Below are positions 1 to 50,659 of a DNA stretch of 50,659 bases, piece by piece. The translations under genes and the position numbers were made by a program. The stretch's first letter is position 1, and each line of letters begins with the position of its first letter. The DNA is taken from IMG/VR virus record IMGVR_UViG_3300022699_000112, positions 1 to 50,659 of that record; one strand, written 5' to 3'. This stretch comes from a virus. The notes beneath the pieces were generated by a model that saw nothing but the letters and a program-made list of their open reading frames with translations, did no database searches and was not told where the DNA came from.

Positions 1-99
1 CCTACGGCCACGCCATTGGTGGTGCCCACACCGACTGTTTCGAATTGCGTAACTGTGACGATATTGAAATCGTTGCTAACTATATCCACCACTGGAAAA
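1..99. repeat. Left copy of the 99-bp terminal duplication (assembly overlap)
   Basis: Bases 1-99 are identical to 50561-50659. The duplicated stretch lies inside one open reading frame, in the beta-helix part of the giant adhesin. The frame continues across the join with no phase change: 48388 to 50560, then 1 onward. A real direct terminal repeat of a T7-like phage would normally be longer and lie in noncoding DNA. I read this as the k-mer overlap left by circularising the assembly, giving a 50,560-bp unit genome. Confidence 0.93.
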
Positions 100-3000
100 G
101 TAATGCCGCTCTATTTATCAATGGTGGAGGTTATGGACGGGTCAACCGTTTGTTCATAGCCAACAATATCATGTATAATAATTGGGGTGCAGCCCACTGT
201 TTGCAGCTTCAGAATGTCGATACGGTCGAGGTTTATAACAATATTCTGTGGGGAAGTTCTTCTACCGTATGGGGTGAGTTCAGCGTCGCTCCTACGACCA
301 TGACAAACCTGACTCTCCGTAACAACATTATCGGGAGATTCTTCTTCGAACAACAGTCGTGGAATCCGGCTTGGGTAGCCGATCACAACTTCTATGTTAC
401 CGCTAATGGATACATTCCGGGCACAGGAGATATTCAAGGCACCGACCCGGGCTTCACTAATGTTCCAGCAGTTACCGCCACAGCAAACACGTCAGCTACC
501 ATAGCTGATTTCCAACCTCTGAATGAATCAGTAATCACTGTCGATGCCGGTACCACGATCACCAAGGTAGCTTATGATATCCGTCGTTTGGCTAGACCTC
601 AAGGGTCTTCGTATGACATCGGTCCTTTCGAGTACGGCGGCATAGCAGCTACCGGTGCTTGTTGTAACGAACTCACCGGTGAATGTAGTATCACCACCGA
701 AGCTAATTGCCAGCATACTTGGCTCGGAGCCGGAAGCACTTGTGCTGATTGTCACGTCGAAGAACCCACGCCTCTTGAGGGCCTCGTCGTCAGTTACAAC
801 TGTAACGAAGAAGCCACGGACTACACAGCTACAGATGCGTCCGGTCACGGAACCACCGGCTACCTCATCAACACCAATGCCGGATTTGGTGCCGGTCTTA
901 CACGTTTCGATGGTGAGGGTCGCGTATTTTTCGAAAACATCCATGATGGAATAGAGTTAGATACTACCGATATTCAGACAGAACGCGGAAGTATCTGTGC
1001 TGCTATTTTCCCGCAGGTCGTAACAGATACCGTCCAACCTGCCCGGTATGTCTTTGGTCACTCTGTCAATGCTTGGAGCCGCCGAATCCAGATATACATT
1101 CAGGATGGATATCTCCATGTCGGTATGGGCGACAACCACTCAGTCGGGGCCAACGCGTACGCCGTTTCTGTAGATACTTGGTATCATGTCTGCCTGACTT
1201 GGCTTGATAACGGAATTACTATCTCTGACGGGGCGGCTACTGGAACTCTTACCGGTTCGGGTACTTGGCAGTTCTATGTAAACGGAACTCTTGTAACCTC
1301 CGGCACTTATTCTGGTCTGGACTTCTTACAGGCCAAGGTCCGCTTCGGGAACACCGGACTCCAATCCGAACCTTACGATCAGGAAGCCTTTGACGGTTAT
1401 ATGGATAACCTCAAAGTATACGATGTCCCTCTATCGGCTTCACAGGTACTTACAGTAGCCACAAACGATACACCGACTATTGTTCCGGGACCCGAACCGA
1501 TTGAGGCCCCGACAATTACAAACGGGTCCGTATCAAATATCGGCACTACCACGGCCACAATAGCCGGGTCGGTAGTCGATACTGGCGGGGCTAATCCCAC
1601 GGCTATCCTCTATTACGGAACTTCTGATGAGGGGGAGGTAGCTGCTAATTGGGATAGCTCTATCAACTTAGGTACCCAACTCGGCTCTATTGAAGTCGCT
1701 CTCGGGCAGCTTGACCATAACACCACATATTATTTCCGATTCTATGCCTCCAACGAGGGCGGTGAAGATTGGGCAGACAGTACCTCTAGTTTTACTACAT
1801 TGGAGATCACTGCCCCGACCCTTACTCAAAATGCCGCCTCAGATATCGGTACCACCTCGGTAACTCTCTCGGGTACGATAACCGATGAGGGTAACGACAC
1901 GCCCCGCGTATACGTCTACTATGGCGAAACCGATGAGGGTACGGTGGGGGCAAATTGGGACAGTTTTGAACTGACTACATATAATGAATCGGATAACACC
2001 TTTACCATAACCTTAACGGGCCTGACCGCCGACACAACATACTACTTCCGCTTTTACGCGGTAAACGACATAGGTGGTACTTGGGGCAGCAGCACTCTTA
2101 CGTTTGATACGAATCCGTCAGGAGCACCTACTGTAACCAATGCAGTAGCTTCGGATATCGGAGCACATGAAGCCCGCATTGGCGGTACTGTTACAGATGT
2201 CGGTCTTGAGAATCCCACCGTAACGGTTTATTGGGGTACAGCCGATGGCGGGACTACTCCGGGGAATTGGGACAACTCCGCTGCTTTTGGAGTCCAAACC
2301 GGGGCGTTCAATACCCTGCTCACCAACCTCAATCTGGCGACCGTCTATTATTACCGGGCCTATGCAGAGAACAGCTATGGCTCTGATTGGGCTGATTCTA
2401 CGCAGTCATTCAGTACGCTGGAACAGGAACCGATCAGTCCAGACCCGAACGAAAAAGACGACGGTTTTATCTGGGGGTCTTATGATAATGCGTACGAAAT
2501 AGTCACCCCCTATTCATCCGATGAAGCTTTTGATCTGCACAAGGTTTCCCGAGGCGACGTAACCTATATCGCCCACGAAAACCACGCCCCTCGTAAGCTC
2601 ACCCGCTATGGGGATAAGAATTGGGTACTTGAGGTAGTCGATTTTACCGGCGGTCCTTTCCTCGACCTAAACCAAGACAGCACTAAAACGGTCCAATATG
2701 TCAACGGAACCGGAGGTACTTCAGGCAACTACTATACCATAGGCAACACGGGTACATTGGATGCCTCAGGCCATACTCCGTTCTTGGAACAGCATGTAGG
2801 GGCCTTGTGGGAAATCGAACACACCCGCAATGACAACTCCTTGGAGACACCCGACAATACTACCCATGCAACCCCCACGGGTTCAGGCATTAAGTGTAAG
2901 GGTCACTGGCAGTTCGACGTGTCGAATATGTCAGGTGGTACCCCGAACTACACCGCCAAAATCTGGCGTAAAGAGGGCAACGGTAGCTGGCAGGAATACC

Positions 3001-4487
3001 AGCACTACAGTGCCGCTACACTGGACAGCGGGGACGAAGAAGCTGAGGACGTTTACTACACGTTCACTACCAACCACGCCGATGTGAACGGGGTCTTTAC
3101 GGCCACGAATCAAACCAACAAAGGCATAGTAAAGATCACCTCTTATGTTTCGTCGGCACAAGTAGCGGTAGAAGTTATCTCTCCAATTTATCAAGAAAGC
3201 GGAACTTCATCGGCTACTCCTATGTGGGCTGAGGGTGCTTGGAGCGATTACCGAGGCTACCCTAAATCCGTAACATTCTTTGGAAATCGTCTCTGGTGGG
3301 CTGGGACGACAAACAACCCACAGACATTATGGGGTTCTAAAGTCGGTTATTATGAAGACCACACCAAGGGTGAAGCAGACGATGCAGCCGTAATCATAGG
3401 TATTTCTGATAACGATGTGTCTTCTATTGAGTGGATATCGGCCTCTCAGAACTTCATGGTGGGTTCTGCTCGCAAGGAGTATATTATCTCGGCGGCAGAC
3501 CGGAATGACCCGATCACCCCGGACGACAACATCGCCAAGCCCCACTCCACAAATGGTTCAATGCACATTCAGCCGGTGGAATTCGGTGGAGGCATGATGT
3601 ACGCTCAGCGGCTTGGTTACAAGATGCTAGTACTCCACTATAAGTATTTAGACGATGCCTACGATTCCGCAGATGCTACGCGACTGGCTTCACATATGTT
3701 CAAATATCTACCGGTCGATATATCGCGTCAGGGTACCCCAGAATCCATTATCTGGGTAAGCCGGGCCGATGGTACCCTCTGTTCATTTAGGTACGACAGA
3801 GACGAGGAAATCGCGGCGTGGAGCCGTATTGTGACTGGTGATGTTTCAGCCAGCCCCACACACGCCATACTGTCCTCGGCGGTCGTAGCCGGAACCCAAG
3901 AAGACAGAATCTGGACACAGGTTGAACGGTACGTCGATGGGGAATTCCGCTATTACATTGAGCGGTTCTCGAATCGCACATTTACCTCTCTTACCGAGGG
4001 TAACTATCTCGACAGCATCCGCACCAGAACTGCGGACAGTCTAGGTCGTCTTACTCGACTGTATGGCCTTGAGGGGCACACCACAACAGTAATGCAGGGG
4101 GCTACTAAGATCGGTACCTACACTGTTCAAGATGGAATGATTACAGGACTGACGGCTAACCAGACATATACAGTCGGTTTACCGTATTCGGCTCATCTAA
4201 AAACAATGCAGTTCGCTGTTCCCGGAGCCGTAGTAGAGGGCAACATTAAACGGATAACAAACATCCTTATTCGTTACGTCCAGACGGAGGGCGGGCAGGT
4301 CGGAGCCATATCCCACGGCCAGAATAATCTGGTTGATCTGGATGCTTCATTCTCTCTATCTTCGGACGATATTGAAGTGTTCTCCGGGGGAGGTTTTGAC
4401 AAGGACGGTCGTCTGGCCCTATACTTCACCGAACCTTACCCGGCTACAATACTGGCGGTCGTGTTTGAGATCGAGATCATTGCATGA
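1..4487 (+). CDS. Adhesin-nozzle fusion protein, residues about 725-2219 (gene begins at 48388)
   Basis: This is the 3' two-thirds of a 2219-aa gene that starts at 48388 and crosses the window ends in frame; base 1 is the second position of codon 725. Seen, in protein numbering: the rest of a right-handed beta-helix to about 937; a Cys-rich motif (GACC...C...C...CADC) about 943-975; a LamG/concanavalin-like domain about 985-1211; three FN3-like repeats of about 100 residues from about 1226, 1328 and 1433; then from about 1543 the C-terminal part of a tail nozzle (T7 gp12-like), with a YEIVTPY...DLHKV segment and a beta-propeller-like remainder. The nozzle N-terminus is a separate gene just upstream of the adhesin (47840-48388). 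The Cys-rich and FN3-like modules recall planctomycete surface proteins (family knowledge, not searched). I infer a polysaccharide-binding or -cleaving receptor-binding protein built into the tail tip. The next gene overlaps by ATGA. Confidence 0.85.
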   Translation, partial: YGHAIGGAHTDCFELRNCDDIEIVANYIHHWKSNAALFINGGGYGRVNRLFIANNIMYNNWGAAHCLQLQNVDTVEVYNNILWGSSSTVWGEFSVAPTTMTNLTLRNNIIGRFFFEQQSWNPAWVADHNFYVTANGYIPGTGDIQGTDPGFTNVPAVTATANTSATIADFQPLNESVITVDAGTTITKVAYDIRRLARPQGSSYDIGPFEYGGIAATGACCNELTGECSITTEANCQHTWLGAGSTCADCHVEEPTPLEGLVVSYNCNEEATDYTATDASGHGTTGYLINTNAGFGAGLTRFDGEGRVFFENIHDGIELDTTDIQTERGSICAAIFPQVVTDTVQPARYVFGHSVNAWSRRIQIYIQDGYLHVGMGDNHSVGANAYAVSVDTWYHVCLTWLDNGITISDGAATGTLTGSGTWQFYVNGTLVTSGTYSGLDFLQAKVRFGNTGLQSEPYDQEAFDGYMDNLKVYDVPLSASQVLTVATNDTPTIVPGPEPIEAPTITNGSVSNIGTTTATIAGSVVDTGGANPTAILYYGTSDEGEVAANWDSSINLGTQLGSIEVALGQLDHNTTYYFRFYASNEGGEDWADSTSSFTTLEITAPTLTQNAASDIGTTSVTLSGTITDEGNDTPRVYVYYGETDEGTVGANWDSFELTTYNESDNTFTITLTGLTADTTYYFRFYAVNDIGGTWGSSTLTFDTNPSGAPTVTNAVASDIGAHEARIGGTVTDVGLENPTVTVYWGTADGGTTPGNWDNSAAFGVQTGAFNTLLTNLNLATVYYYRAYAENSYGSDWADSTQSFSTLEQEPISPDPNEKDDGFIWGSYDNAYEIVTPYSSDEAFDLHKVSRGDVTYIAHENHAPRKLTRYGDKNWVLEVVDFTGGPFLDLNQDSTKTVQYVNGTGGTSGNYYTIGNTGTLDASGHTPFLEQHVGALWEIEHTRNDNSLETPDNTTHATPTGSGIKCKGHWQFDVSNMSGGTPNYTAKIWRKEGNGSWQEYQHYSAATLDSGDEEAEDVYYTFTTNHADVNGVFTATNQTNKGIVKITSYVSSAQVAVEVISPIYQESGTSSATPMWAEGAWSDYRGYPKSVTFFGNRLWWAGTTNNPQTLWGSKVGYYEDHTKGEADDAAVIIGISDNDVSSIEWISASQNFMVGSARKEYIISAADRNDPITPDDNIAKPHSTNGSMHIQPVEFGGGMMYAQRLGYKMLVLHYKYLDDAYDSADATRLASHMFKYLPVDISRQGTPESIIWVSRADGTLCSFRYDRDEEIAAWSRIVTGDVSASPTHAILSSAVVAGTQEDRIWTQVERYVDGEFRYYIERFSNRTFTSLTEGNYLDSIRTRTADSLGRLTRLYGLEGHTTTVMQGATKIGTYTVQDGMITGLTANQTYTVGLPYSAHLKTMQFAVPGAVVEGNIKRITNILIRYVQTEGGQVGAISHGQNNLVDLDASFSLSSDDIEVFSGGGFDKDGRLALYFTEPYPATILAVVFEIEIIA

Positions 4488-4954
4488 GATTAGAGAGATT
4501 TAAAGCCGAGCATTGGCATCTGGAAGACCCTTTTGAGGTCCTAGAAGCCCCTGACGACACAGGGGTTAAATTGGCTGAACAGGGTATAGCGTTTACCGCT
4601 TTTGACGGGGATACCCCGGTAGCATGTGGGGGATTCCTGTTCTGGGCTGAGAATGAGGCCGAGGCTTGGATTCGAATCTCAAAGCGAATAGGGGACAACC
4701 TTTATCCGGCATTAAAGGCTATTAGTGACGGACTAGCTATTTTGCGTCGTATATATGACGGACAAGTATTCTGCTGGGTCGATGATTCATGGCCCAAAGC
4801 CCAAAGGCTAGTCCAGTGGCTCGGTTTCAATAAGACCGATACCCAAAAAGAACATGACGGTACAATCTACTTTCTCTGGGAACTAAACAATGGCAGTAGC
4901 ACTTCTGGCAGCAGGGTTGGTAGCCACAGTAGCGGGCGGGATTCAACAGGCTAA
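4484..4954 (+). CDS. T7 gp13-like internal virion/assembly protein (GNAT-like fold)
   Basis: 156 aa; its ATG overlaps the stop of the adhesin-nozzle gene (ATGA). The pattern of an alternating strand with DGDTPVACGG, then EAWIRIS and a C-terminal AQRLVQWLGF helix resembles the small acetyltransferase-fold family that contains T7 gp13 and related podovirus proteins (DUF2833-like), which help virion assembly and are ejected with DNA. I see no clear acetyl-CoA loop, so an enzymatic role is unlikely. Its position, right after the nozzle and before three further internal-virion-type genes, matches T7 gene order. The C-terminal 20 or so residues (Ser/Gly-rich) are encoded in the 65-nt overlap with the next gene and may be poorly constrained. 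Confidence 0.6.
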   Translation: MRLERFKAEHWHLEDPFEVLEAPDDTGVKLAEQGIAFTAFDGDTPVACGGFLFWAENEAEAWIRISKRIGDNLYPALKAISDGLAILRRIYDGQVFCWVDDSWPKAQRLVQWLGFNKTDTQKEHDGTIYFLWELNNGSSTSGSRVGSHSSGRDSTG

Positions 4955-5387
4955 TCTTGCACGCCAGCAGGCTGAAGCCCAAGCGGAAATCTCCGAATAC
5001 AACGCCGACTGGAAAGAATACGAAGCAGCCCAAAATGTCGAGGGTGCAAAACTCGAAGAACAGCGTGTCGCTAGAATGGCCCGGCTGTTTAAGGGTCAGC
5101 AGCGAGCGGCTATAGGTGCTTCTGGTACAGAATTCACCGGTTCTAACATTGAAGTCCTCGGGGACATTGCATACCAAACACGCCTCGACCAAGACCTCAC
5201 TCTCCGCGAGGGCCTCTTGGCCGGTCAACGATCATCAGCCGAAGCCGATGCTTCCAAATTTGAAGCTCGATGGAGCCGTTTGTATGGTCGTCAAGCTCAG
5301 TCGTCTATCTTCATGGGTACCGCTGCACAGGGACTTGTCGGTGCTGGCAACCTGTGGGGAGCTTTGCCTATGGGTAGGAGATACTAA
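4890..5387 (+). CDS. Internal virion protein, T7 gp14-like
   Basis: 165 aa. An N-terminal hydrophobic Ala/Gly segment (residues about 3-18, LLAAGLVATVAGG) is followed by a long Gln/Glu/Ala-rich helical region, then a GASGTEFTGSN turn and a second helical stretch ending near a Gly-rich hydrophobic tail. This layout is typical of the small ejection protein (T7 gp14-like; often annotated internal virion protein B) that forms the outer-membrane part of the ejection channel. It begins 65 nt before the end of the gp13-like gene and ends in a TAATG overlap with the next, so the block is translationally coupled. The assignment rests on order, size and composition rather than specific motifs. Confidence 0.6.
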   Translation: MAVALLAAGLVATVAGGIQQANLARQQAEAQAEISEYNADWKEYEAAQNVEGAKLEEQRVARMARLFKGQQRAAIGASGTEFTGSNIEVLGDIAYQTRLDQDLTLREGLLAGQRSSAEADASKFEARWSRLYGRQAQSSIFMGTAAQGLVGAGNLWGALPMGRRY

Positions 5388-6874: not shown

Positions 6875-9800
6875 ATACCTCGACCAACTGGCCGAACAGC
6901 AACAGGTAGAGCAAAAAGATAAAGTAGCCAAGCTCGACCAGAATATTCGTGCAGGAATCAAATCCGGTATGTCGGTACCGGAGGTCGTGGAGAATCTACA
7001 AATCCCAGATGATGTCAAAAACCCCAACCGGGCTGTAGCCTCTATCGCTATCGCCCAACATTATAATATTTCACCGGAGAGAGCTTATGGTATCTACCCG
7101 ATTTACAAACAGGGACTTTGGCCGGACATTTCTGATGAGGAAGTGGTAAACCGCCTTTATCAATCACCACCAGATCAATTACCCGAGTCTACTGTTACAG
7201 AACAAACTTATGAGCAAAAAGCTGAAGAAACTCTTAAAGATTTCCCTGTATATGCCCAAAAAAGGGAGAAAGCAGAGGAAAAAAATTATCCTAAACCCAC
7301 TGGCAAGAATATGCTTAAAAGCATTTTCATGCCTCCTGACCCAAAAGGGGTCGAGCAGGCTCAAGCAGCGGCACGGGAAAAGGCCCGACGAGCCTTGGAC
7401 GATGAATGGTTTGGAAAGGGCCGCAGTCGCGATCTGGCTCGCGAACAATACTACGATGCCTTGTTTGAAGCTAAGACCCCCGAAGAAAAAGAAACAGCTA
7501 CCCAACAGTACATAGAAGCTCTAAAGCAGCAGCACCAAAACCACCTTAAAGATATCGACCGTATAGAATACCAAATCCAAAACCATACGGAAGATGAGTC
7601 TTTCATGGAACGCAAAGCTCTCGCAGCCAAGCGAGCCGGTTATCGGGCTAAAGGTACTTGGGCTAACGTCCAGCAGCATCTTGCTAAAGGCAACCCGTTC
7701 TTCACTAAAGACAGAGAAAAAGAATTCATTAAAGAGCAACAAGACGCTCAACGGGAAGCCTATGCTAAAGCCAATGCTCCTGAACTCTGGCGGGCTGAAC
7801 TAAACTGGATAGACGGGGTATCGAACAGTATTATTGAAAACGCCCCCACTATGGCTATGGCGGCTGGTGCGGCGGCGGCTGGTGGGGCTGTGGGTGGTCC
7901 CGTAGGTGCCCGGGCTGGCCTCTGGGCGGTTACCTATTCAGCTGAAAGCAGCGAGATATATCAAAGTGCTTTGGAACGAGGTTTTTCGCCAGAAGAAGCC
8001 TCACGTCGAGCACACATGGGCGGGGTTATAAACGCCTCACTGGAAACAGCCGGTGGCGGTGTTACCAAGTACTCACCGTCTCCGGGACTCAAGGGGAAGA
8101 TTCTAAAATACGGAGGTAAACTTACCAAGAACCAACTCCGAGAAGTTCTCGTAGAAGAAGTGCCGCAGGAAGCTGTCAGCACGATTTTAAGCGGTAACGT
8201 ACCCTATGATGTAGATGGTACCGTTGACTACAGTGAGTTTACAAACCAGATGCTGTTGGTAGCCCGTGATGCAGCCTTTACTTCAGCTTTCTATTCTTCA
8301 GTACAGGCCGGGGCTTCTAATCTGGCCGCTATAAAAACGAAACAACAAACAGGATTTGATATCGACGACTTCACCAACTTCGATGATCTAATGAACGATG
8401 TGATAGCTAATGGACAAGAAAGAGACACCGATCTCCAAAGTAAAAAAGACGCTGGCGAATATGTTCCGGGCGAAGAAAAGTATCGTCTCGATAAAATAAT
8501 AGACCATGCCGTTAAGAAGTCTATTCAGATTCCCTCTCCCGACCTCAAAAAATATCCGTACATGCTGGTCCCTAATTCCCGGCTGGAAGAACAGGCTGAG
8601 GGATACACATGGCATATCAAAAACTTCACAGACCCGACCAACAACATCAAGTTTAAATCCTACAAAGAGGGTCTGGCTAAGATGCAGGAGCTTGTGCCGG
8701 AGCATGTCTGGAAAGCCCCTATCCTTGTAGACTTGGAACAAGGCCACCCCATCGAGATCGAAGAAGCCCACAAACAAATCCAAACACCTGACTACACCGA
8801 ACCCCTCGAAGATATCCTTAATGCTCACCGATATTATCTGGTAGACGAGGGAGGCAATAAATACGGCGTGCGTGATGCCGATACCAGTAAGCAGGTAACA
8901 ACCGGGGAAGAATTAGATAAGGCTACTCGTGTTAAAAACATGCGTAACCTTACCCAAGACAAGGGAGTGGTGTCCGACGACCCTCTGGTTCAGGTTCACA
9001 GGTTTACACGTTCACGATTCGATAATGGGGCAGTCCCAAACGTCTATGGTCCTATTTCCGACATGCTGCATCCGGGTGCGGACGAGACTGCCCGGAGTAC
9101 CGCTGCCGGGGCGCTTAACGAATATGTCACTGGACTCCATACCTCACTTGCCCAAGAATTCGGTCAGGTATTTGCAGACCAACAAATCCCACAAGAATTC
9201 AGGGATAGTATACTCTGGCTTCCCAATGAAGTAATTTACAAAAACAAAGACCAGTCTTCCGCAGATACTCTACGCCACATTATGCGTTTGGGGCAGCTTT
9301 ACGGCGAGGGTGCTCAGGCCGATCAATTTCGCAACTGGTCCCGAGACAAGATTAACAAGGTCAAAAAGAACAAACACCGGAAGCCTATTCTGTCCGAGAA
9401 AGACGCAGAACCCGGACTCTGGCATAAACTATGGGACCCCATTGGCGGCACGTCAAAAGACGACTTTGTTTCTTCATTGACCCATATTTTCGGCACGGGT
9501 CATGTTGACGTTTCAGAGCGGATAATGCAGGCCCGTACCCAGACCACTAAATACTTTCTGGGCATGAATGACATAGTTGATAAAATACAACAGGACCTCC
9601 AAATCACCAATCCCGAAAAAGCTGAATGGAGCACCGTTCTCGGTCGTAAGCCCAAACACATTCCAGTAATTGTTGACGGGCAGGAACGTAGTATGACGAT
9701 GGCCCAGCTAATATATCTGGACCTTGCTTCTCGTGACCCCTCCCTATATAACATAATCACGAACGAGGGCATCGCCTTTAAAAATCTCGATCTAGGCCCC

Positions 9801-11330
9801 CTCTCGGAAACTGAGATTGTAGACATCCACAATAAGGTAGCTGAGAATCAGAAGACCCTGCAACTAGCCAACCGGCTTGCTGAATTTTACCAACAGGACC
9901 GGGCTGAGATTGTAAACCAAGCTTCTCGCGATCTCAAAGGTTACGACGACGTAACAGCAGAACATTGGATGCCTCCTGCCCGAAAAGGTCAGAGTGGGCC
10001 GTTGCTGGTTCAGGATGTATTCGGTACTGTTTCTGAAGACATGCGTACGGCCGCTCACTATGCTGGTATCAAGCCGGTTATGCGGAATCTCCAAGCTCTG
10101 GTCAACAACAAAAACTTCCGTCGATCTGTTCAAAACGCCGGTAAGGGCCGCCACCTTAAACGCTTCCAAGAACAACTCGACGCAATGGACCGCAGCCGCC
10201 TGCGTATCGAATCCGATCTGGAAAAGGCCATCAGCCGCATCGGAGCCAATCGTGCCCGGGCAATTTTGTCTAATGGTCGAATCGCTATGCTACAGGCAGG
10301 TTCTTTTCAACTGTACCAGAACGAAACCGATACGCGATACATGCGTCCCGGCCATGTCCCCAAACAAATTTTTGACTCATGGGACCTGCTTCAGTTCAGG
10401 GAAAAGGGCCTCGGCTCTATCCACTCTGTAGTTTCGAAAAACACTATCCGCAAAACATGGAATGGTCGTGGGGCTGTTCTAGATTCCATTCTATGGCCCA
10501 TGCACAAGGTGGACCTTATGGTAGTACGTCAAGCAGCCCGCATTGCCTACCATGAAATGACCGACAAACACCTCGTAGGCAAAGCTCGGCGGTGGTGGGC
10601 TGGTTATGGTAAGGACCCGCATTCTCTCAAAATGATGAGTCCCGAGTTCGTAAAGGCTCTGCATGACCGGGCTACCTATCTGGCATACTCCACCCAGCCC
10701 ATGTTCTTCCCCGAGAGTCGTAACTACTACACCCAGCACGATAACGTGTTCCTCCGGGAAATGGCCCGCTTCCGCTCCTTTACCGATCAGCTTTTGAGGA
10801 ATATCGGCAGACAATATTCTCTCTGGCAAAGTGGCGAGATATCCAACCGCGAAGCAATGCTTAATATGGGCCGCACAATCATGTGGGCTACTATCTGGTA
10901 TAACGGACTCCGCTTTGCGTGGGACTCAATCTTCCACCCAGACGACGCTAAAGAAAAAGACTACTTGTTAGAGGCTATTCTGGGGCCGCTTTCTTGGATA
11001 CCTTTTATCGGCTGGCCTCTTAAAACCGGTGCCGCTTCTTTGGTATCTGATAAAGCCCAGCGGTATGGCCCAGCCAACTTCTCGACCATTACCTTTGACC
11101 AGCTTAACAGGTCAAAAGACACAGCGTTCACCTTAGGTCTGGCGATGAAATACAGCCTCAATGATGAGAAAGACTCGCGGGGCCGTTGGAAATCTGAAAA
11201 ATATTGGAAACGCGGTATTCGCGATGCAGTACGGGATTCTTTGATTTTGTTCTTCGGTCTTCCCGGCGACGCAGTGAATATCATAGAGGATGGAAAGGAC
11301 AAGGGAAAAATTGACATCACAATACGATAA
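6867..11330 (+). CDS. Giant internal virion protein, T7 gp16-position
   Basis: 1487 aa, in the place of T7 gp16 (1318 aa). Highly charged helical N-terminal third; a hydrophobic Ala/Gly stretch near residues 320-360 (MAMAAGAAAAGGAVGGPVG) that could insert in a membrane; a long central helical region with repeated Asp/Glu/Lys; and an aromatic C-terminal region (about 1290-1430, including MWATIWYNGLRFAWDSIF and LGPLSWIPFIGWPL) with membrane-active character. The C-terminal part resembles regions found at the ends of large phage polyvalent/internal core proteins. No lytic transglycosylase motif was recognised at the N-terminus, unlike T7 gp16. I infer that it is ejected into the host and spans the inner membrane during DNA entry. 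The last codons overlap the next small gene. Confidence 0.65.
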   Translation: MSRYLDQLAEQQQVEQKDKVAKLDQNIRAGIKSGMSVPEVVENLQIPDDVKNPNRAVASIAIAQHYNISPERAYGIYPIYKQGLWPDISDEEVVNRLYQSPPDQLPESTVTEQTYEQKAEETLKDFPVYAQKREKAEEKNYPKPTGKNMLKSIFMPPDPKGVEQAQAAAREKARRALDDEWFGKGRSRDLAREQYYDALFEAKTPEEKETATQQYIEALKQQHQNHLKDIDRIEYQIQNHTEDESFMERKALAAKRAGYRAKGTWANVQQHLAKGNPFFTKDREKEFIKEQQDAQREAYAKANAPELWRAELNWIDGVSNSIIENAPTMAMAAGAAAAGGAVGGPVGARAGLWAVTYSAESSEIYQSALERGFSPEEASRRAHMGGVINASLETAGGGVTKYSPSPGLKGKILKYGGKLTKNQLREVLVEEVPQEAVSTILSGNVPYDVDGTVDYSEFTNQMLLVARDAAFTSAFYSSVQAGASNLAAIKTKQQTGFDIDDFTNFDDLMNDVIANGQERDTDLQSKKDAGEYVPGEEKYRLDKIIDHAVKKSIQIPSPDLKKYPYMLVPNSRLEEQAEGYTWHIKNFTDPTNNIKFKSYKEGLAKMQELVPEHVWKAPILVDLEQGHPIEIEEAHKQIQTPDYTEPLEDILNAHRYYLVDEGGNKYGVRDADTSKQVTTGEELDKATRVKNMRNLTQDKGVVSDDPLVQVHRFTRSRFDNGAVPNVYGPISDMLHPGADETARSTAAGALNEYVTGLHTSLAQEFGQVFADQQIPQEFRDSILWLPNEVIYKNKDQSSADTLRHIMRLGQLYGEGAQADQFRNWSRDKINKVKKNKHRKPILSEKDAEPGLWHKLWDPIGGTSKDDFVSSLTHIFGTGHVDVSERIMQARTQTTKYFLGMNDIVDKIQQDLQITNPEKAEWSTVLGRKPKHIPVIVDGQERSMTMAQLIYLDLASRDPSLYNIITNEGIAFKNLDLGPLSETEIVDIHNKVAENQKTLQLANRLAEFYQQDRAEIVNQASRDLKGYDDVTAEHWMPPARKGQSGPLLVQDVFGTVSEDMRTAAHYAGIKPVMRNLQALVNNKNFRRSVQNAGKGRHLKRFQEQLDAMDRSRLRIESDLEKAISRIGANRARAILSNGRIAMLQAGSFQLYQNETDTRYMRPGHVPKQIFDSWDLLQFREKGLGSIHSVVSKNTIRKTWNGRGAVLDSILWPMHKVDLMVVRQAARIAYHEMTDKHLVGKARRWWAGYGKDPHSLKMMSPEFVKALHDRATYLAYSTQPMFFPESRNYYTQHDNVFLREMARFRSFTDQLLRNIGRQYSLWQSGEISNREAMLNMGRTIMWATIWYNGLRFAWDSIFHPDDAKEKDYLLEAILGPLSWIPFIGWPLKTGAASLVSDKAQRYGPANFSTITFDQLNRSKDTAFTLGLAMKYSLNDEKDSRGRWKSEKYWKRGIRDAVRDSLILFFGLPGDAVNIIEDGKDKGKIDITIR

Positions 11331-28299: not shown

Positions 28300-28401
28300 A
28301 CTTACGCCTGCCACCAAAATATCAAAAAAGCTAATCAAGGTTTGCGTGCTGCCAATGTGTCAAAAAGCACGTCGCGGGAGTTTTCGAGCTTTCTCCCAAA
28401 T

Positions 28402-28485
28402 GGCGGTACAGCGGATACGGCAAGCCGCAGCGGTCTGTAAAACCGTTCCCTGACCGGTGTGTGGGTTCGACTCCCTCTGCCGCCA
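28402..28485 (+). tRNA. tRNA-Tyr (GTA)
   Basis: 84 nt. Acceptor GGCGGTA pairs with TGCCGCC (one G-U); D arm GCGG-loop-CCGC; anticodon arm GCGGT-CTGTAAA-ACCGT gives anticodon GUA; a long variable arm, as expected for bacterial tRNA-Tyr; T arm GTGGG-TTCGACT-CCCTC with one mismatch. Discriminator A; CCA is not encoded beyond it. It probably supplements host Tyr decoding. Confidence 0.92.
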
Positions 28486-28528
28486 GAGTTCTTTTAAAAG
28501 TTGATATGCCTTTCTTATATGGGGGAAA

Positions 28529-36912: not shown

Positions 36913-37321
36913 TACTGGATATACTTGGGGGTCTTGGGCCTTTGTTCAAAAAGGGGCGGGAAACTGGTCCGCTGACGACTTGGCTGATGCGGCTACCGAA
37001 ACGGGGGATGCTACCTCGATAGACGGTAAAGCGGCTGCTCTAGTCTCGGTTACGGCTGTGGAAGACAATACCGGTGCTATAGACGGTGAGGTGACGGTTT
37101 ATATCCTTGGGGACATAGACGGCACTAATTATGAAGAAACCACCATAGGCAACCCCTATAAGGTTACTTTCACCCCCGTACAGAACGATACCGTCCGAGT
37201 TATCATTCCTGTCGACCCTAGAGTTTATAAGAACTTCAAGGTAGCTATCGAGAATCAGGGGGGCCAGACCCTCGCAATGTCCGTCAGACTCATCACCGCA
37301 GATATCCCGGCAGCTTCATAA
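36905..37321 (+). CDS. Small beta-rich virion protein
   Basis: 138 aa; overlaps the previous gene by 8 nt and the next by 1 (TAATG). Beta-rich with Gly/Asp/Thr turns; strands such as AALVSVTAVEDNTG, EVTVYILGDIDGTNY and VRVIIPVDPRVYKNFKVAI give an Ig-like or jelly-roll look. A surface or decoration role is plausible. No family recognised. Confidence 0.6.
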   Translation: MANTGYTWGSWAFVQKGAGNWSADDLADAATETGDATSIDGKAAALVSVTAVEDNTGAIDGEVTVYILGDIDGTNYEETTIGNPYKVTFTPVQNDTVRVIIPVDPRVYKNFKVAIENQGGQTLAMSVRLITADIPAAS

Positions 37322-38229
37322 TGATTGAACTTCTAACCAAACCACATCTTGGTTTTCTCCAATCCAACGACTGGAAACAACACCCCGTCTTTCACGGGCT
37401 GATCGGTTGCTGGCCTATGGTCGAGGGCGGTGGGAATCGCCTTACCGATATTTCAGGCTACATGAACCACGGCACAATCAATGGTGCAACATGGGTCGGG
37501 ACTCCTTGGGGTCCGGGCCTTTCTTTTGACGGGTCTGATGATTATGTAAACTGCGGGGCTATGCACGCTTGGGGCGTGGCGAACACAAAAACCTCCGACC
37601 CCCCACCTCAATTTACCGGACACTTGGGGTTTTCGGTAGTAGCGTGGTGTCGAACCAGTTCAAGTTCCCGGCAGGCAATTCTGGCCTCAGACTGCTTGGG
37701 GTTTAGTGACGAACCCGAAATCGGGCTTCTCTTAAACCATACCTCTACCGGCTGGGGTGAATCGACAGGGAACCATTGGGGCGGGTCGATTCTTTACACC
37801 AACAAGGACCGGGTAGCTACAGTTTCCAGTAATTCCACCCCCTATAACGGGGAATGGCACATGATAGGTTGTGCGAACGCGGGGGAGCGGAATGACCTAC
37901 TGGCCTTTTATCTCGACGGAGAGGATGTAACAGCAGCCACCACGACCGATACTTATGGGTATGGGGAATGGGAAATTCAATCCTATGTAGCAATTGGGGC
38001 CACTTCTGACACCGCCGGGGGTACTCCGACCTACTTCTTCAACGGACAAATGACCCTCGTGATGATGTGGAATCGAGCCATTACCGCCGATGAGGCCGCA
38101 ATGTTATACAGGTTGGGACCGGGTGGAATTTTCCGAAATGAGTTCAACCCGGGCTATTATGGGGCGATAAATCTCGGAACCCCTGACTTTAATCCCGCAT
38201 GGACTATTAACTGTAATCAGGTACTATAA
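37321..38229 (+). CDS. LamG/concanavalin A-like virion protein
   Basis: 302 aa. The segment GLIGCWPMVEGGGNRLTDISG...NHGTINGATWV, then GLSFDGSDDYVNC, and EWHMIGCANAGERNDLLAFYLDGE...ATT and ITADEAAMLYR are the LamG/concanavalin lectin-glucanase pattern. Binds or cleaves polysaccharide, probably as a surface-exposed fibre or decoration protein. A second LamG domain lies in the giant adhesin. Location between the small and large terminase genes is unusual for a receptor-binding gene. Confidence 0.8.
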   Translation: MIELLTKPHLGFLQSNDWKQHPVFHGLIGCWPMVEGGGNRLTDISGYMNHGTINGATWVGTPWGPGLSFDGSDDYVNCGAMHAWGVANTKTSDPPPQFTGHLGFSVVAWCRTSSSSRQAILASDCLGFSDEPEIGLLLNHTSTGWGESTGNHWGGSILYTNKDRVATVSSNSTPYNGEWHMIGCANAGERNDLLAFYLDGEDVTAATTTDTYGYGEWEIQSYVAIGATSDTAGGTPTYFFNGQMTLVMMWNRAITADEAAMLYRLGPGGIFRNEFNPGYYGAINLGTPDFNPAWTINCNQVL

Positions 38230-39677
38230 TGCTTAAAAAGAACACCACAGGACAATTTTTATACTTTGGACTGGTCAGTACGGTTGATGGGTCCGCAGTT
38301 ACCGGAGCTTCGCCCTCTGGTTATGTGTCTCTCGACGGAGCCGCTCAGGGGGCAGTCGGGGGAAGTATTACCGAAGTCGGTAACGGTCAATATAAGCTGG
38401 CCTGCAATGCTGGCGACCTCAATGGGGACGAATGTGGTTTCCTTTTCACCGCCGCCGGAGCGGTACCAGTCAGTCTCACAGTTACTACGGAAACGAAGAA
38501 AATGGCCGATCTCAATGATCTGGCTGCTGGGGCATTGATGGGCTTAGCCAATGACGCTATTACCGCCGCCAAATTCGATGAGAGTACAGCATTCCCCCTT
38601 AAATCCGCTGATACCGGGGCTACACAGATCGCTCGTACGGGTGCTGATGGAGATACTTTGGAGTCTCTCTCTGACCAGATCGACGGACTCCCCACCGATG
38701 CTGACGTAAATGCTGCTTGTGACACGGCTTTGGCCGATATTCACCTTGACCATCTTCTGGGCACTGCTTACGCTGGTGAGGGAACTGCCGGGTCCATTCT
38801 CAAAGACCTCTTGGAAGATGATGGAGGTACCTATCGGTTCACGTCTAACGCCCTTGAACAAGGTCCTGCGGCTACTGCTGACGCGACCGAAGCTAACCAG
38901 ACGACAATTATTAACCACCTTACGGACATTAAAGGAACTGGTTTTGTTAAAGATACGGACTCAATGGTGGATTTGGCCCATATTGGTGCAGACGGAGACA
39001 CCCTCGAAACCCTTTCGGACCAACTGGATGCCATCCCCGATGCCGCCGCAATCAACGCCGAAGTGGACACGGCCCTTGCCGACATACACCTTGACCACCT
39101 CTTGGCAGCAGACTATGACCCAAGTTCCAAACCCGGAGTGGCAACAGCTTTACTGAATGAAATTATAGAGAACGATGGTGGAGTTTCTCGATTCACCGCT
39201 AACGCTCTGGAACAGGCACCCGGGGCAACAGGTGATGCTTCGGAGGCGAATCAGACTACCATCATCAATCATCTTACGGATATCAAGGGTACCGGGTTCG
39301 TTAAAGATACCGATTCGTTGGTGGACCTCGCACACATTGGGGCTGACTCGGATACCCTTGAAACTTTAAGCGATCAGTTGGATGCTATGGACACCAAGAT
39401 CGACACCATTGACGGTATTGTAGATGATATCCTTACAGATACTGGAACTACGCTTGATGGTAAGATCGACACTGCCGACGCGGTTGCGGACTCTATTCTG
39501 GCTATCCTCCAAGGCGACCACGAGATCAACACTGCCACCTCTCCTTGGAGGCAACTTATCAAGGACAAGACAACCAGTTCTACGCTGGTGGAAAAGGAAA
39601 TGTTTGAGGAAGATGGGTCTACGGGTGTAACGGCTACGACTCAAGTTGTGGGTGCTCTCAAGGAGCCGAGTGCTTAA
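38229..39677 (+). CDS. Fibre-like protein with tandem repeats
   Basis: 482 aa. An N-terminal beta domain (about 1-90; GLVSTVDGSAVTGASPSGYVSL and GQYKLACNAGDLNGDECGFLF) of a type found at the base of phage fibres is followed by long repeats of about 115-118 residues: GADGDTLESLSDQ, then an ALADIHLDHLL helix, an E/D-DGG-x-x-RFT loop, NQTTIINHLTDIKGTGFVKDTDS, then GADGDTLETLSDQ again and a third partial unit. Repeat starts at 38640, 38985 and 39339. It would be an extended trimeric fibre or a tape-like spacer. C-terminus is short and charged. Confidence 0.7.
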   Translation: MLKKNTTGQFLYFGLVSTVDGSAVTGASPSGYVSLDGAAQGAVGGSITEVGNGQYKLACNAGDLNGDECGFLFTAAGAVPVSLTVTTETKKMADLNDLAAGALMGLANDAITAAKFDESTAFPLKSADTGATQIARTGADGDTLESLSDQIDGLPTDADVNAACDTALADIHLDHLLGTAYAGEGTAGSILKDLLEDDGGTYRFTSNALEQGPAATADATEANQTTIINHLTDIKGTGFVKDTDSMVDLAHIGADGDTLETLSDQLDAIPDAAAINAEVDTALADIHLDHLLAADYDPSSKPGVATALLNEIIENDGGVSRFTANALEQAPGATGDASEANQTTIINHLTDIKGTGFVKDTDSLVDLAHIGADSDTLETLSDQLDAMDTKIDTIDGIVDDILTDTGTTLDGKIDTADAVADSILAILQGDHEINTATSPWRQLIKDKTTSSTLVEKEMFEEDGSTGVTATTQVVGALKEPSA

Positions 39678-46644: not shown

Positions 46645-47373
46645 ATGGCTTTATCTACAGTCGAACAGGTATATCAAGAAGCAGTGGACCTCATTGGCGA
46701 GCACCAGCTTACCGACACCAGCCCAACTGGACAGAAACCTTATTCGACTTGTGCCATCCACTATCCTAGAGCACGGGATGAAATCATTCGGGGTTATGCT
46801 TGGAATGAAGCAACCGAACTGGCCCTGTGTCTTCAGGATTCCACCACACCGGCCCACACATGGACCTATCGCTTTCTTAAACCCAGCGATTGTCTACGCA
46901 TAATTACTACTTCTCGCCCTAAACAAAAGTGGCGTGTTATTGGCAATTACATCTACACCGACTATAAGTATACCCCCGGTTCATACACTGTGGGTACATC
47001 GTATACGGCAGGTCAGTATCTTTCATACAGCAGCGTCACCTACCAAGTCACGGCGGCCTTTACAGCTACTTCTTGGGCTGCTGACGCATCTAAATGTACT
47101 TCCAAGGGCGGGGATTATGGCTACATCGAAGTCGAGTACGCCAAACAACTAAGCGACCCCACCACATGGTCTGCCCAGCTTCGGCAAGCTATCGTTCTCA
47201 ACCTTGCCACCAAAATCGTTATCCCGATCACCAGCGACTACCAGCGGCGAACGTCTCTATTGGAAGAACTTTGGAAGATGGTTCTGCCCCATGCGTTTGC
47301 TTTGGATGCTATTGAGGGGAAACCCAAACAATTTTTCTATTCTGATTTTATTGATTCACGCGGAGAAGCATAA
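46645..47373 (+). CDS. Tail tubular protein A (adaptor, T7 gp11-like)
   Basis: 242 aa; no SD. N-terminal VEQVYQEAVDLIGEHQLTD helix pair and YPRARDEIIRGYAWNEATELALC match the T7 gp11 family that joins portal to nozzle. Contains an insertion of about 40 residues (GTSYTAGQYLSYSSVTYQV...) not usual in T7 gp11, which looks like a small carbohydrate- or fibre-contact module. Followed in the operon by a small beta protein and the nozzle. Confidence 0.85.
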   Translation: MALSTVEQVYQEAVDLIGEHQLTDTSPTGQKPYSTCAIHYPRARDEIIRGYAWNEATELALCLQDSTTPAHTWTYRFLKPSDCLRIITTSRPKQKWRVIGNYIYTDYKYTPGSYTVGTSYTAGQYLSYSSVTYQVTAAFTATSWAADASKCTSKGGDYGYIEVEYAKQLSDPTTWSAQLRQAIVLNLATKIVIPITSDYQRRTSLLEELWKMVLPHAFALDAIEGKPKQFFYSDFIDSRGEA

Positions 47374-47840
47374 TGGTAACTGAAACTGTTCGCATGGGTT
47401 GGTCCGACCCCAGAGGGGCCATAGCTACGGATGATACTCTAGTATCGGCTGCTGTCGGTACCATGAAATTTGCCAACGTACCGGCTCACGCGTACAAACC
47501 GGATACTCGACAGAATGCCCTTGAAGTCGCATTTACTATGGACGCTGACGGGTCCGCCTGCGTTGCCTATCTTTTCGCGGCCCGGGAGAACGGGGATATT
47601 GTACTGGTATGGACTGGTACTTTGACAGCCGGAACCCAGCAGGCCACTGATGGCGGGACTTGGGTAGACACTTTCGGTTCTACCACCGATAACTGGATTA
47701 CCACGATCAAGGAAGTGGATGCCGGAGGAAACAACCGCATGGCCCGACTCGTGCTCGATACCTGCGGCTACAAATACTTCTTCTGTCAGTATACCGGACT
47801 GTCCAGCGAAACCGTAAAGGCATTCTTCTCAGGATTCTAA
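47373..47840 (+). CDS. Small tail protein
   Basis: 155 aa; TAATG overlaps on both sides. Beta-rich; ALEVAFTMDADGSACVAYLFAA and VLVWTGTLTAGTQQ strands, and a CGYKYFFCQYTGLSSETVKAF end. Position between adaptor and nozzle suggests a tail accessory or fibre-attachment protein. No specific family recognised. Confidence 0.65.
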   Translation: MVTETVRMGWSDPRGAIATDDTLVSAAVGTMKFANVPAHAYKPDTRQNALEVAFTMDADGSACVAYLFAARENGDIVLVWTGTLTAGTQQATDGGTWVDTFGSTTDNWITTIKEVDAGGNNRMARLVLDTCGYKYFFCQYTGLSSETVKAFFSGF

Positions 47841-48388
47841 TGGCTGCCAAGAAATTTATTCAAACGTCATTCAACGCCGGTGAATTGTCGGAGACAATGG
47901 CCGGTCGTGTTGATTTTCAGAAATACTTTAACGGTGTCGCTGAAATGGTCAACATGATTCCTCTTAAACAGGGGGGTGCCACCAAACGCCCCGGTCTGGA
48001 ATTTGTGGCCGAGACAAAGGGTAAGGCAAAGCTCCTGCCCTTTGAATTTTCTGTAGAAGACACCGTAGTTCTGGAAATGGGCGAGTACTATCTCCGTTTT
48101 TACACGGAGGCAGGGCCGGTACAAGTAGATAACCCGACACCGGATACCAATTTTGTTCAGCTAGGGACCTACAAATGGTATGAGTCTTCTTCTGGTTATG
48201 ATGAATATTACGCCGCCACACCCAGCGGTACTGACCCGTCTATCACCAAACCGGACAAACTGTTCGAACGGTCTATCCGCATGACCGAGGGGACTCTTGG
48301 CTCTCTTGCACGGGGCGAATGGGCTTATGGGGATAATGACTCTCTAGGCTTCAACACAATATATGTACGACTTACTCTGAGGGCGTAA
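47840..48388 (+). CDS. Nozzle N-terminal part (tail tubular B, T7 gp12-like)
   Basis: 182 aa. The start SFNAGELSETMAGRVDFQKY, VNMIPLKQGGATKRPGLEFV and LPFEFSVEDTVVLEMGEYYL is the classical opening of podovirus nozzle (tail stabilisation) proteins, which normally run on to about 800 aa. Here the gene stops after a GDNDSLGFNTIYVRL motif, and the expected C-terminal part follows only in the next gene, after a large adhesin. Its TAA overlaps the next ATG (TAATG), so the two parts are made in sequence and must assemble together. No frameshift signal is seen. Confidence 0.85.
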   Translation: MAAKKFIQTSFNAGELSETMAGRVDFQKYFNGVAEMVNMIPLKQGGATKRPGLEFVAETKGKAKLLPFEFSVEDTVVLEMGEYYLRFYTEAGPVQVDNPTPDTNFVQLGTYKWYESSSGYDEYYAATPSGTDPSITKPDKLFERSIRMTEGTLGSLARGEWAYGDNDSLGFNTIYVRLTLRA

Positions 48389-50659
48389 TGGCTAATTCCT
48401 TAACCCGGAATAACATCACTTGGGTATTTGATAAGGAGATCACCCTCTCAGGGGCAGGTGGTACTTATCAGTACGGGCAATATTGTACCGGCGATTACTG
48501 GATTGTAGGACCAGTAACAATCACCAGTATACCCGGAGTCAACGGGGCAGAGATTAACCCAATAGCTGATGGAATACATCAGGGATTAGCAGCATCCGGG
48601 GCGGCTCAGTATTCCAGTTCTCGCGATGTGACTACGAGCATTCCGCTGACGATTCAGCCCGGGTCTTCTCTCATTACAGCAGCAGGTACTGGAAATTGCG
48701 GAACTTATGAGGGGGACCGTTGTGATATTACTTACTGTTCAGTTTTGACGGTGGTAACTTCGCCTCCCCCAACAGGCAGTTTCCGTCCCGGCTATGCTGG
48801 GTCTAATAAAACCATAATGGGGAATGAAAGCGATATCCGTTATGACCGCCTAGGCCGCGTTAATATTATCACTGGCGGCGAATCTATAACAGGACATGCT
48901 AACCGCTGGCGACATTGTAAACCCTCTCACCAAGGGGAGCACTACTACCCGGATACCACACCTTGTGGACATGATTTTGATTGTTATGGCACTGTTCTCG
49001 CTAGTCAGCTTGGCGAGGCTGTCCTTACGGCAAACTGCAACTACACACAGGCTGAAAAACGTGATCTGGTCGTAGGGCTGGTTCAGCACGGCATAGATGT
49101 CTACAGCGTAATCCAAGCCCGAACTCCCGGGTCCGCCTGTTGGAATCCCAATGGCGGCCATATATATTTTTCGGGCTTGGCGGCCATGTTTGCAGGGGCA
49201 CTCTTAGACAATGCCGATATTCTTGGTGTATTTCAAAAAACAGGGGTCTATCTTTATACAGGTGCCTACGGAGCGGGAAATCCCCCACCGGATTATTGGG
49301 GTTGTATAAACAATCAGGTCTTTTACGTCAAACAAGAAGATATTGACCGAGGTGTAGGATATACAGAAACCCACCGGGGTATGCCGGAATGGGGTATTAA
49401 CCACTCCAAAGCTCCGGCTGGACGCAACCCGGATACCCCCTCATGGACGGCTCCCTACCGCCAGAATTCCAGTGCTTCTGGTTGGGGTGCTGGCATACTG
49501 GCTATGCACATTATGTCCGGCCAAGGATTCAATGTCCGTAGCCTCTGGAATAACTATGCCGTATTCGATTACCAAGATCGGTTTGTTGCTATAGAGGGTC
49601 CGAGTAACGACTTCTTTCGCCACCGAAACGCCTCTTGGGTACGATCTATGTGGAACACTTATCGCTCCGCATACCCCCCGGTATGGCCTGCATCTGGGTC
49701 CACAGATACTACCCCACCTCTAGCTCCGTCGAGTCTGATATCTCCGCAACAATCGGACACAACAATCTCCCTTAGCTGGACTGCGGCAGGTCAGGCTGCT
49801 GACGGTGATTACCCGGTTGGCTATCGAATCTATCGAGACTCTGTGTTGATTGATTCTGTCACGGGCACAACCTATACTGATTCCGGTCTTACTGCCTCCA
49901 CATCGTACGACTATGAAATCTATTCTTACGATGATGCCAACCTTGAATCTTCCTCGGCAGCTACGGGTACGTTCTCCACAGAAGCATCTGCCCCTGCCGT
50001 AACAGCCGTATACATCAATGGTGCTGGTAGCGACTCCAATGACGGTTCTTCTTGGACACAGGCACTCCGTAATCTTCCGGCTACTCTAGTCCGGGGTACT
50101 ACCTACTACATTGGGTCGGGTGTATTTAGTTCTTATAATTTCAATGATGCCGCCGGAGCCGAATGGATTAACATTAAAAAAGCTACCCTCACCAGCCACG
50201 GAACCGAAACCGGTTGGAATACCGCATACGCTTCCCGGGCACAGTTTGGTAACTTGACATTTACCAGCACCTCCAATATCCTTATCGACGGTATGGACAG
50301 AAACCTGCTTATTCAGCATGTCTCGGGAACTACCAAGCTGATAAGCTTCTCGGGTACCAGTTCTTATATCACAGTCCAGAATTGTGAACTCAACGGCATG
50401 AATGGCGGTACTTCAGTGATGTCTGATGCCCTCGTGTATACCGCAGGTGGCGTGGGAACTTATGTCTCATTCCTAAACAACTACATGCACGACTTTGGGG
50501 ATGATGGTCTTTATATCGGGGAGAATTGCCATCACTGGTACGTCCGCTTCAATGAAATAGCCTACGGCCACGCCATTGGTGGTGCCCACACCGACTGTTT
50601 CGAATTGCGTAACTGTGACGATATTGAAATCGTTGCTAACTATATCCACCACTGGAAAA
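48388..50659 (+). CDS. Adhesin-nozzle fusion protein, N-terminal part (continues at 1)
   Basis: 5' third of the 2219-aa gene (continuing from base 1 to 4487). Starts in the TAATG overlap with the nozzle N-terminus. Residues 1-130 are beta-rich (NNITWVFDKE..., GDYWIVGPVTITSI), residues about 150-435 look like an alpha/alpha-barrel polysaccharide lyase or glycosidase-type domain (AEKRDLVVGLVQHGIDVYSV, GGHIYFSGLAAMFAGALL), about 442-530 is an FN3 domain (APSSLISPQ...YRIYRDSVLIDSV) and from about 538 a right-handed beta-helix begins (VYINGAGSDSNDGSSW). I infer a host-polysaccharide-binding or depolymerising adhesin. No signal peptide is present, as expected of a virion protein. The domain set looks unlike ordinary podovirus fibres and more like a secreted bacterial enzyme. 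Confidence 0.85.
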   Translation, partial: MANSLTRNNITWVFDKEITLSGAGGTYQYGQYCTGDYWIVGPVTITSIPGVNGAEINPIADGIHQGLAASGAAQYSSSRDVTTSIPLTIQPGSSLITAAGTGNCGTYEGDRCDITYCSVLTVVTSPPPTGSFRPGYAGSNKTIMGNESDIRYDRLGRVNIITGGESITGHANRWRHCKPSHQGEHYYPDTTPCGHDFDCYGTVLASQLGEAVLTANCNYTQAEKRDLVVGLVQHGIDVYSVIQARTPGSACWNPNGGHIYFSGLAAMFAGALLDNADILGVFQKTGVYLYTGAYGAGNPPPDYWGCINNQVFYVKQEDIDRGVGYTETHRGMPEWGINHSKAPAGRNPDTPSWTAPYRQNSSASGWGAGILAMHIMSGQGFNVRSLWNNYAVFDYQDRFVAIEGPSNDFFRHRNASWVRSMWNTYRSAYPPVWPASGSTDTTPPLAPSSLISPQQSDTTISLSWTAAGQAADGDYPVGYRIYRDSVLIDSVTGTTYTDSGLTASTSYDYEIYSYDDANLESSSAATGTFSTEASAPAVTAVYINGAGSDSNDGSSWTQALRNLPATLVRGTTYYIGSGVFSSYNFNDAAGAEWINIKKATLTSHGTETGWNTAYASRAQFGNLTFTSTSNILIDGMDRNLLIQHVSGTTKLISFSGTSSYITVQNCELNGMNGGTSVMSDALVYTAGGVGTYVSFLNNYMHDFGDDGLYIGENCHHWYVRFNEIAYGHAIGGAHTDCFELRNCDDIEIVANYIHHWK
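50561..50659. repeat. Right copy of the 99-bp terminal duplication
   Basis: Identical to 1-99; the reading frame of the giant adhesin passes through it unbroken. See the left copy. Confidence 0.93.

Follow-up and report, generated by a model that had tools for sequence, protein, structure and literature searches.

Among the components of a short tail, the nozzle is the best conserved and the one that shuts off the DNA channel, and the locus described here raises the question of how a nozzle that is divided over two genes, with a giant adhesin fused ahead of its second part, is to be understood. The locus lies in the window, a stretch of 50,659 bases corresponding to positions 1 to 50,659 of the IMG/VR virus record IMGVR_UViG_3300022699_000112 (window coordinates written with two dots are on the + strand). 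It consists of gene 1 (47840..48388), which encodes a product of 182 amino acids (aa), and gene 2, an adhesin-nozzle fusion of 2219 aa starting at 48388 (hereafter the giant). The best explanation of this arrangement, and one that we consider probable, is a two-gene, two-chain tail nozzle that displays an adhesin.

Both parts of the nozzle are recognizable by homology. In searches of PHROGs, residues 1–97 of gene 1 match positions 1–100 of the 712-position profile of the nozzle family phrog_376 (expectation value (E) 5.6e-32), and the giant from residue ~1550 (to ~2217) matches positions 99–709 of the same profile (E 3.1e-115); the two stretches adjoin without a gap and cover the profile over its full length. 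In single-sequence phmmer searches of the PDB, the gene 1 product aligns to residues 9–104 (E 1.1e-14) and the end of the giant to residues 110–822 (E 2.6e-42) of 8ck1_A, a solved nozzle chain of the Carin-1 phage tail. Giant residues 1547–2219 were modelled with AlphaFold (mean predicted local distance difference test score (pLDDT) 76, predicted template modelling score (pTM) 0.65), and a Foldseek fold search matched the model to 8ck1_A (E 3.7e-40, template modelling score 0.72), and also to the LME-1 tail (E 8.7e-26) and to the nozzles of HRP29, T7 (9jyz_P, E 3.9e-17), Kp7, and SU10. On these profile, chain and fold matches the nozzle C-part (viz. the remaining propeller and the platform half) is placed at 2475..4487. 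The family likeness to 8ck1 chain A of Carin-1, gp12 of epsilon15, Bbp13 of BPP-1 and tail tubular protein B of HTVC010P, all of phrog_376, extends over the full length; in each of these phages the nozzle is encoded by one gene, with an adaptor before it and internal virion proteins after it. These nozzles are single chains, whereas that of the window lies in two open reading frames (ORFs) in different frames.

A reading made earlier from the letters of this DNA (the sequence-only reading) had claimed that the nozzle is divided, with a giant adhesin fused ahead of its remainder, and the matches to phrog_376 and 8ck1_A confirm this; giant residues 1543–2219, which had been put forward for a fold comparison, do match nozzle folds. 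It had also called the nozzle T7 gp12-type, and here only the fold stands. The T7 gp12 label was rejected because sequence homology is lacking: no T7 nozzle chain was found in the PDB sequence searches, T7 gp12 has no usable sequence similarity to the window nozzle, and the likeness is by fold only. By sequence and by model, the window nozzle is assigned to the epsilon15/Carin-1 type, with a predicted T7-gp12 fold.

The giant might also be seen as a separate tailspike that has kept the nozzle C-part as a docking domain only, gene 1 being a degenerate or auxiliary remnant; an adhesin-first, anchor-last order would be a usable tailspike design, and gene 1 is short. However, no second nozzle-like ORF, complete or otherwise, was found in the window genome, and the nozzle is the tail gate in known podoviruses. 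The C-part is moreover conserved over its whole length (profile 99–709), and gene 1 retains the conserved N-terminal residues of the phrog_376 family, and we regard a separate tailspike as improbable.

The virus record is a single contig. A terminal repeat of 99 base pairs (bp), bases 1–99 being the same as 50561–50659, shows the window to be a circular phage genome. The giant gene runs past the right end (first part 48388..50659, with 724 codons up to 50560, the rest repeating 1–99) and resumes past the circular join at 1..4487, so that joining the ends in frame yields one ORF (48388..50560 and 1..4487) of 2219 aa; the length given by the sequence-only reading, which had closed the circle implicitly, was exact. 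In a metagenomic contig whose circular join (the 99-bp repeat) lies within the giant gene, a misassembly that brought a nozzle gene together with an adhesin gene unrelated to it has to be considered. The join, however, is in frame and within the beta-helix region, away from the nozzle boundaries, the break points fall within one conserved module, guanine plus cytosine (GC) content and codon use are uniform over the nozzle parts and the insert, and analogous inserts and splits occur in relatives (see below); an assembly artefact of this kind is hardly credible. The uniform GC content and codon use gave no signal of a recent foreign insert either, and that proposal was rejected.

Our alignments place the break in a loop after nozzle residue ~97. 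Among the annotated phages aligned (viz. epsilon15, BPP-1, BcepC6B, HTVC010P, and others), some have nothing in this loop and others an Ig/FCCH-like insert; no insert is present in epsilon15, BPP-1, or 8ck1, and that of HTVC010P is Ig/FCCH-like only. In three metagenomic nozzles (L003, L004, and L235) the loop carries a continuous in-frame module, KW..GEWAYGDNDSLGYDTIYVRL..DGTDPDTKAVGY, and a homologous module, KW..GEWAYGDNDSLGFNTIYVRL (48131..48385), makes up residues 98–182 of gene 1 (~85 aa), which stops four residues past YVRL. The missing tail of this module, SPDPNEKDDGF (2436..2474), the aligned counterpart of DGTDPDTKAVGY in the unsplit relatives, is located at giant residue ~1528, just ahead of the nozzle core (~1550). 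Of the 182 aa that had been taken for the nozzle N-terminus, residues 1–97 are correctly described, while residues 98–182 are inserted module and not nozzle core; likewise the end of the giant is nozzle, but it resumes at ~1528 (module tail) or ~1550 (nozzle core) rather than at ~1543 as had been stated. The KW..YVRL module, which is covered by no Pfam family, is also present in a beta-helix-like tail spike of another phage (L005 3569-6295, 59% identity), and it is considered mobile because of this second occurrence. By the alignments, the break falls inside a small mobile module within an insertion hot-spot loop, and not in bare nozzle.

At the junction itself, a Shine-Dalgarno-like GAGGG and an overlapping stop and start, TAATG, are found (48379..48390), the GAGGG sitting a few bases 5' of the ATG of the giant. 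The TAATG coupling at 48388 is identical to the couplings at 47373 and 47840, and the adhesin opens at a natural domain boundary, its first domain starting at Met1 of the giant. The junction of gene 1 and gene 2 looks like a gene boundary, and these features are in keeping with the stop and restart of translation at TAATG that had been proposed beforehand.

To place the window nozzle among its relatives, we surveyed the nozzle matches from homologue scans and annotated phages, 239 loci with the window counted in, several of them being overlapping or duplicate contigs. The N- and C-parts of the nozzle lie in one ORF in 166 of the first 170 loci besides the window, and among these 166 the insert at the first loop measures 0–20 aa in 82, 21–60 aa in 6, 61–110 aa in 64, 111–200 aa in 5, and more than 200 aa in 9. 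In one reading frame, the loop contains in different relatives nothing, Ig/FCCH-like domains, the KW..YVRL module, or 1–3 LamG domains, and the biggest inserts there, of 490 and 553 aa, are arrays of LamG domains. In the window, 85 residues, a stop, and then ~1,549 residues precede the nozzle core, which makes this the largest insert. Two further candidates at the first loop were rejected, viz. a second split in L158, which is an artefact of Ns, and a gene boundary in L106, where a TAG stands in frame within a LamG insert. In L106 (9004-10320) the frame continues past this TAG, which may be a nonsense mutation, recoding or an error; in L185 (3786-7580) a nozzle contains an in-frame TGA where relatives carry Trp.

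The domain architecture of the insert in the giant suggests an adhesin or polysaccharide-active protein, with any activity being putative. Its N-terminal domain (residues 1–444; 48388..49719) belongs to phrog_34846 (E 7.7e-26) and was modelled as a beta-sandwich plus an alpha-helical part (pLDDT 65, pTM 0.75). This domain also occurs in mycobacteriophage and Microcystis phage tail proteins, among them Halley gp45, a mycobacteriophage minor tail protein (28% identity) in which a LamG-like region comes first and the homologous domain begins at residue 237, and the “carbohydrate esterase” of Microcystis phage Mwe-JY25 (26% identity), neither of which is fused to a nozzle; L102 also has a gene that begins with it. 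The domain is followed by a fibronectin type III (FN3) domain (49708..49998) that matches the chitinase A1 FN3 1k85_A (E 1.7e-9) and scores 24.4 bits with Pfam fn3, slightly under the cut-off of 25. A right-handed beta-helix-like region follows in two parts, the first at 50008..50560 (Pfam Beta_helix E 0.0015, below cut-off) and the second resuming at 1..662, with a choice-of-anchor Q match (choice_anch_Q, above cut-off) at 480–635. After a Cys-rich stretch come a LamG/ConA-like lectin domain (945..1448; PF13385 E 2e-9, above cut-off) and three FN3-like repeats (1500..2402; PF16656 E 1.6e-9 and PF00041 E 6.3e-6, both above cut-off). The FN3 and LamG domains named in the sequence-only reading were recovered, and its beta-helix indirectly through the choice-of-anchor Q and sub-threshold Beta_helix matches. 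Its lyase-like domain was not: Pfam and NCBIfam gave no significant match to a lyase family, and the lyase label for residues 1–444 was dropped because the fold search returned no significant match. No close relative of the giant emerged from single-sequence scans over viral and genome contigs; the relatives that were found are phage tail proteins, all of them distant.

Several observations weigh against a two-chain nozzle that displays an adhesin. The window is the only clean split at the first loop among the surveyed loci, with no second independent example, and all other readable nozzles with an insert at this loop are one ORF, except L106 with its in-frame TAG. The frame of the giant is open upstream of its ATG, for 16 codons only. 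The PDB fold search with adhesin residues 1–444 gave nothing significant, alginate lyases being among the matches but all with E > 0.6, and the fusion need not be the sole receptor-binding protein because other possible adhesin genes are present in the genome. The first of these points lead to a reading in which a −1 ribosomal slippage before the stop, or a base error in the assembly, makes the two genes one polypeptide of ~2,400 aa, comparable to the in-frame LamG inserts of relatives. We consider this unlikely, since a correctly spaced Shine-Dalgarno-like GAGGG precedes the ATG, the TAATG is as at the neighbouring junctions, the adhesin opens at a natural domain start, and relatives have real split nozzles with similar couplings. 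A programmed −1 frameshift was set aside, no slippery heptamer having been seen near the end of gene 1 on inspection by eye, which is no formal exclusion.

The split nozzles of relatives occur at a second loop. In at least six loci (viz. L018 4814-8137; L053 7933-12035, the same contig as L182; L184 9326-12811; L205 9476-13256; L218 9503-13130; and L235 9422-13243) the nozzle ends at profile position ~592–599 and is followed by at least one small gene (fibre-like, coil or other) and then by a separate nozzle remainder (~595–756), which in several of them starts with TAATG; L186 shows the same pattern as far as the contig end. The gene between the nozzle halves matches the tail fibre family phrog_3484 in L218 (E 8.8e-13) and the tail fibre family phrog_1396 in L235 (E 4.7e-8). 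In L190, a pectate-lyase-like tailspike gene (3678-4341; PF12708 E 3e-16) stands directly after nozzle-1, and the N-terminus of this spike (WPANG..DWNTKM) is like that of the small genes found there in L053, L184, L205, and L235; its nozzle-2 would lie past the contig end. All eight of these loci have fibre- or tailspike-like genes at the break as separate ORFs, whereas the adhesin of the window is fused to the nozzle remainder. In this respect the window is like L062 (8491-13051) and L215 (9482-14242), which have tandem copies of a nozzle C-terminal gene, the first (nozzle-2a) with an insert (~430 aa and ~350 aa, respectively; propeller DUF5122-like, GLUG) fused ahead of the C-part and the second (nozzle-2b) without. 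These two loci differ from the window in that their break is at the second loop (~575), the insert is smaller, and nozzle-2b is extra; the tandem copies are possibly alternative nozzle ends.

In a maximum-likelihood tree, the window, the six split loci and eight others form one clade with 100/100 support, within which split and unsplit members are intermixed; the nozzles of L183, L188, L189, and L191 are unbroken, and the nearest row to the window nozzle is L184 (46% identity). We define a split nozzle group by a nozzle in two genes with a host-binding gene or domain at the break, and the window nozzle belongs to it. The sequence-only reading knew of no described podovirus nozzle with this layout, and no published split nozzle was found in the open-access literature; the layout is not isolated, though, as the nozzles of relatives are also divided, with genes lying between the two parts.

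Solved nozzles allow the two breaks to be placed approximately. In T7, the platform barrel comprises strands of the first 45 residues together with the C-terminal domain, and the fibre dock is an outside link from the propeller end to the platform (PMC6702177); judged by its place in the sequence, the second break would lie about at this propeller-platform link. In SU10, propeller blade 1 carries the fibre dock loop, blades 1–3 point away from the channel, and the nozzle domains are inserted between blades 2 and 3 (PMC9509320), and the crAss001 muzzle has Ig domains at blades 2–3 (PMC10172136). The first break, ~100 residues in, corresponds to early propeller strands, and an outward-facing insert is therefore plausible. 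T7 gp12 has the same fold by Foldseek but is one chain, and the T7 fibres are separate gp17 trimers. The SU10 gp17 nozzle and the crAss001 gp44 muzzle are propeller nozzles with extra domains at blades 1–3; each of them too is one chain, and their inserts form the nozzle tip, in contrast to the 1.5-kilo-residue adhesin of the window.

We propose that the ancestor had a nozzle gene of the epsilon15/Carin-1 type with a small beta-module in an outer loop past the first propeller strands (~97), and that an adhesin segment of ~1,520 residues, together with a stop and a new start, entered this module behind its last strand (TIYVRL) and ahead of its tail (DPNEKDDGF). Gene 1 would then supply the N-terminal platform strands, those that begin the propeller, and the greater part of the module, and gene 2, through coupled re-initiation of translation at TAATG, the adhesin and then the remaining nozzle. 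The two chains would pair non-covalently, sharing the platform barrel and the module, and assemble as a hexamer beneath the adaptor. The nozzle itself would carry up to six adhesins at its surface, which would not be docked as separate fibres; the six or more adhesins that had been envisaged as part of the tail tube would likewise follow by analogy with the T7 and SU10 hexamers. The adhesin may bind, and perhaps degrade, a cell-surface polysaccharide, and the binding signal could be relayed to the DNA gate directly. Some large tail proteins of phages undergo processing, and a protease might clip off the adhesin after assembly, leaving a two-piece nozzle while the adhesin docks elsewhere; the linkers, however, are FN3-like repeats, no cleavage motif was found, though no search was aimed at one, and we hold such a cut to be very improbable.

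Domain inserts in nozzles are already known, but a nozzle encoded by two genes, or one with fibre or adhesin genes nested within it, was not found described in the open-access literature and is apparently new. There is in our estimate about an even chance that a podovirus clade builds its nozzle from two chains and uses the break, at either of two loops, as a site for cassettes, with receptor-binding domains or whole fibre and tailspike genes being nested and exchanged there, the adhesin being in the window covalently part of the DNA gate. With the adhesin so placed, the effect of receptor binding on the gate could dispense with a fibre-to-nozzle joint, and since relatives have smaller binding domains in this loop, or a tail fibre gene where their nozzle is divided, phages may swap host-recognition parts by opening a core tail protein. 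A protein of the nozzle family bound a host receptor in one phage (PMC7241545), and a mutation in a tail tubular protein B alters host range in another (PMC10904470). Split nozzles with adhesin or fibre genes at the break would represent a route for the exchange of host-recognition parts that standard annotation overlooks, gene 1 appearing there as resembling a short tail protein and gene 2 as a hypothetical giant. They also provide natural break points for a two-part nozzle, and the window nozzle offers a minimal case in which the question of receptor-to-gate signalling becomes testable.

The gene order adaptor, nozzle, internal virion proteins is found in the window as in epsilon15, with one additional gene of 155 aa between adaptor and nozzle. 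The adaptor, of the tail tubular protein A type, is the upstream neighbour (46645..47373; phrog_394 E 2.6e-26), and two internal virion protein genes follow the giant (4484..5387; phrog_4177/308 and phrog_418), in the order of epsilon15 gp13-gp14. Large genes at 5387-6874 (495 aa) and 6867-11330 (1487 aa) occupy the positions of internal virion proteins, and their products are without any family match. Upstream of the large terminase, a LamG-like gene (37321-38229; PF13385 E 1e-10) and its neighbour (38229-39677; 482 aa) are possible further adhesins, and a phage tRNA-Tyr gene (GTA) is located at 28401-28486.

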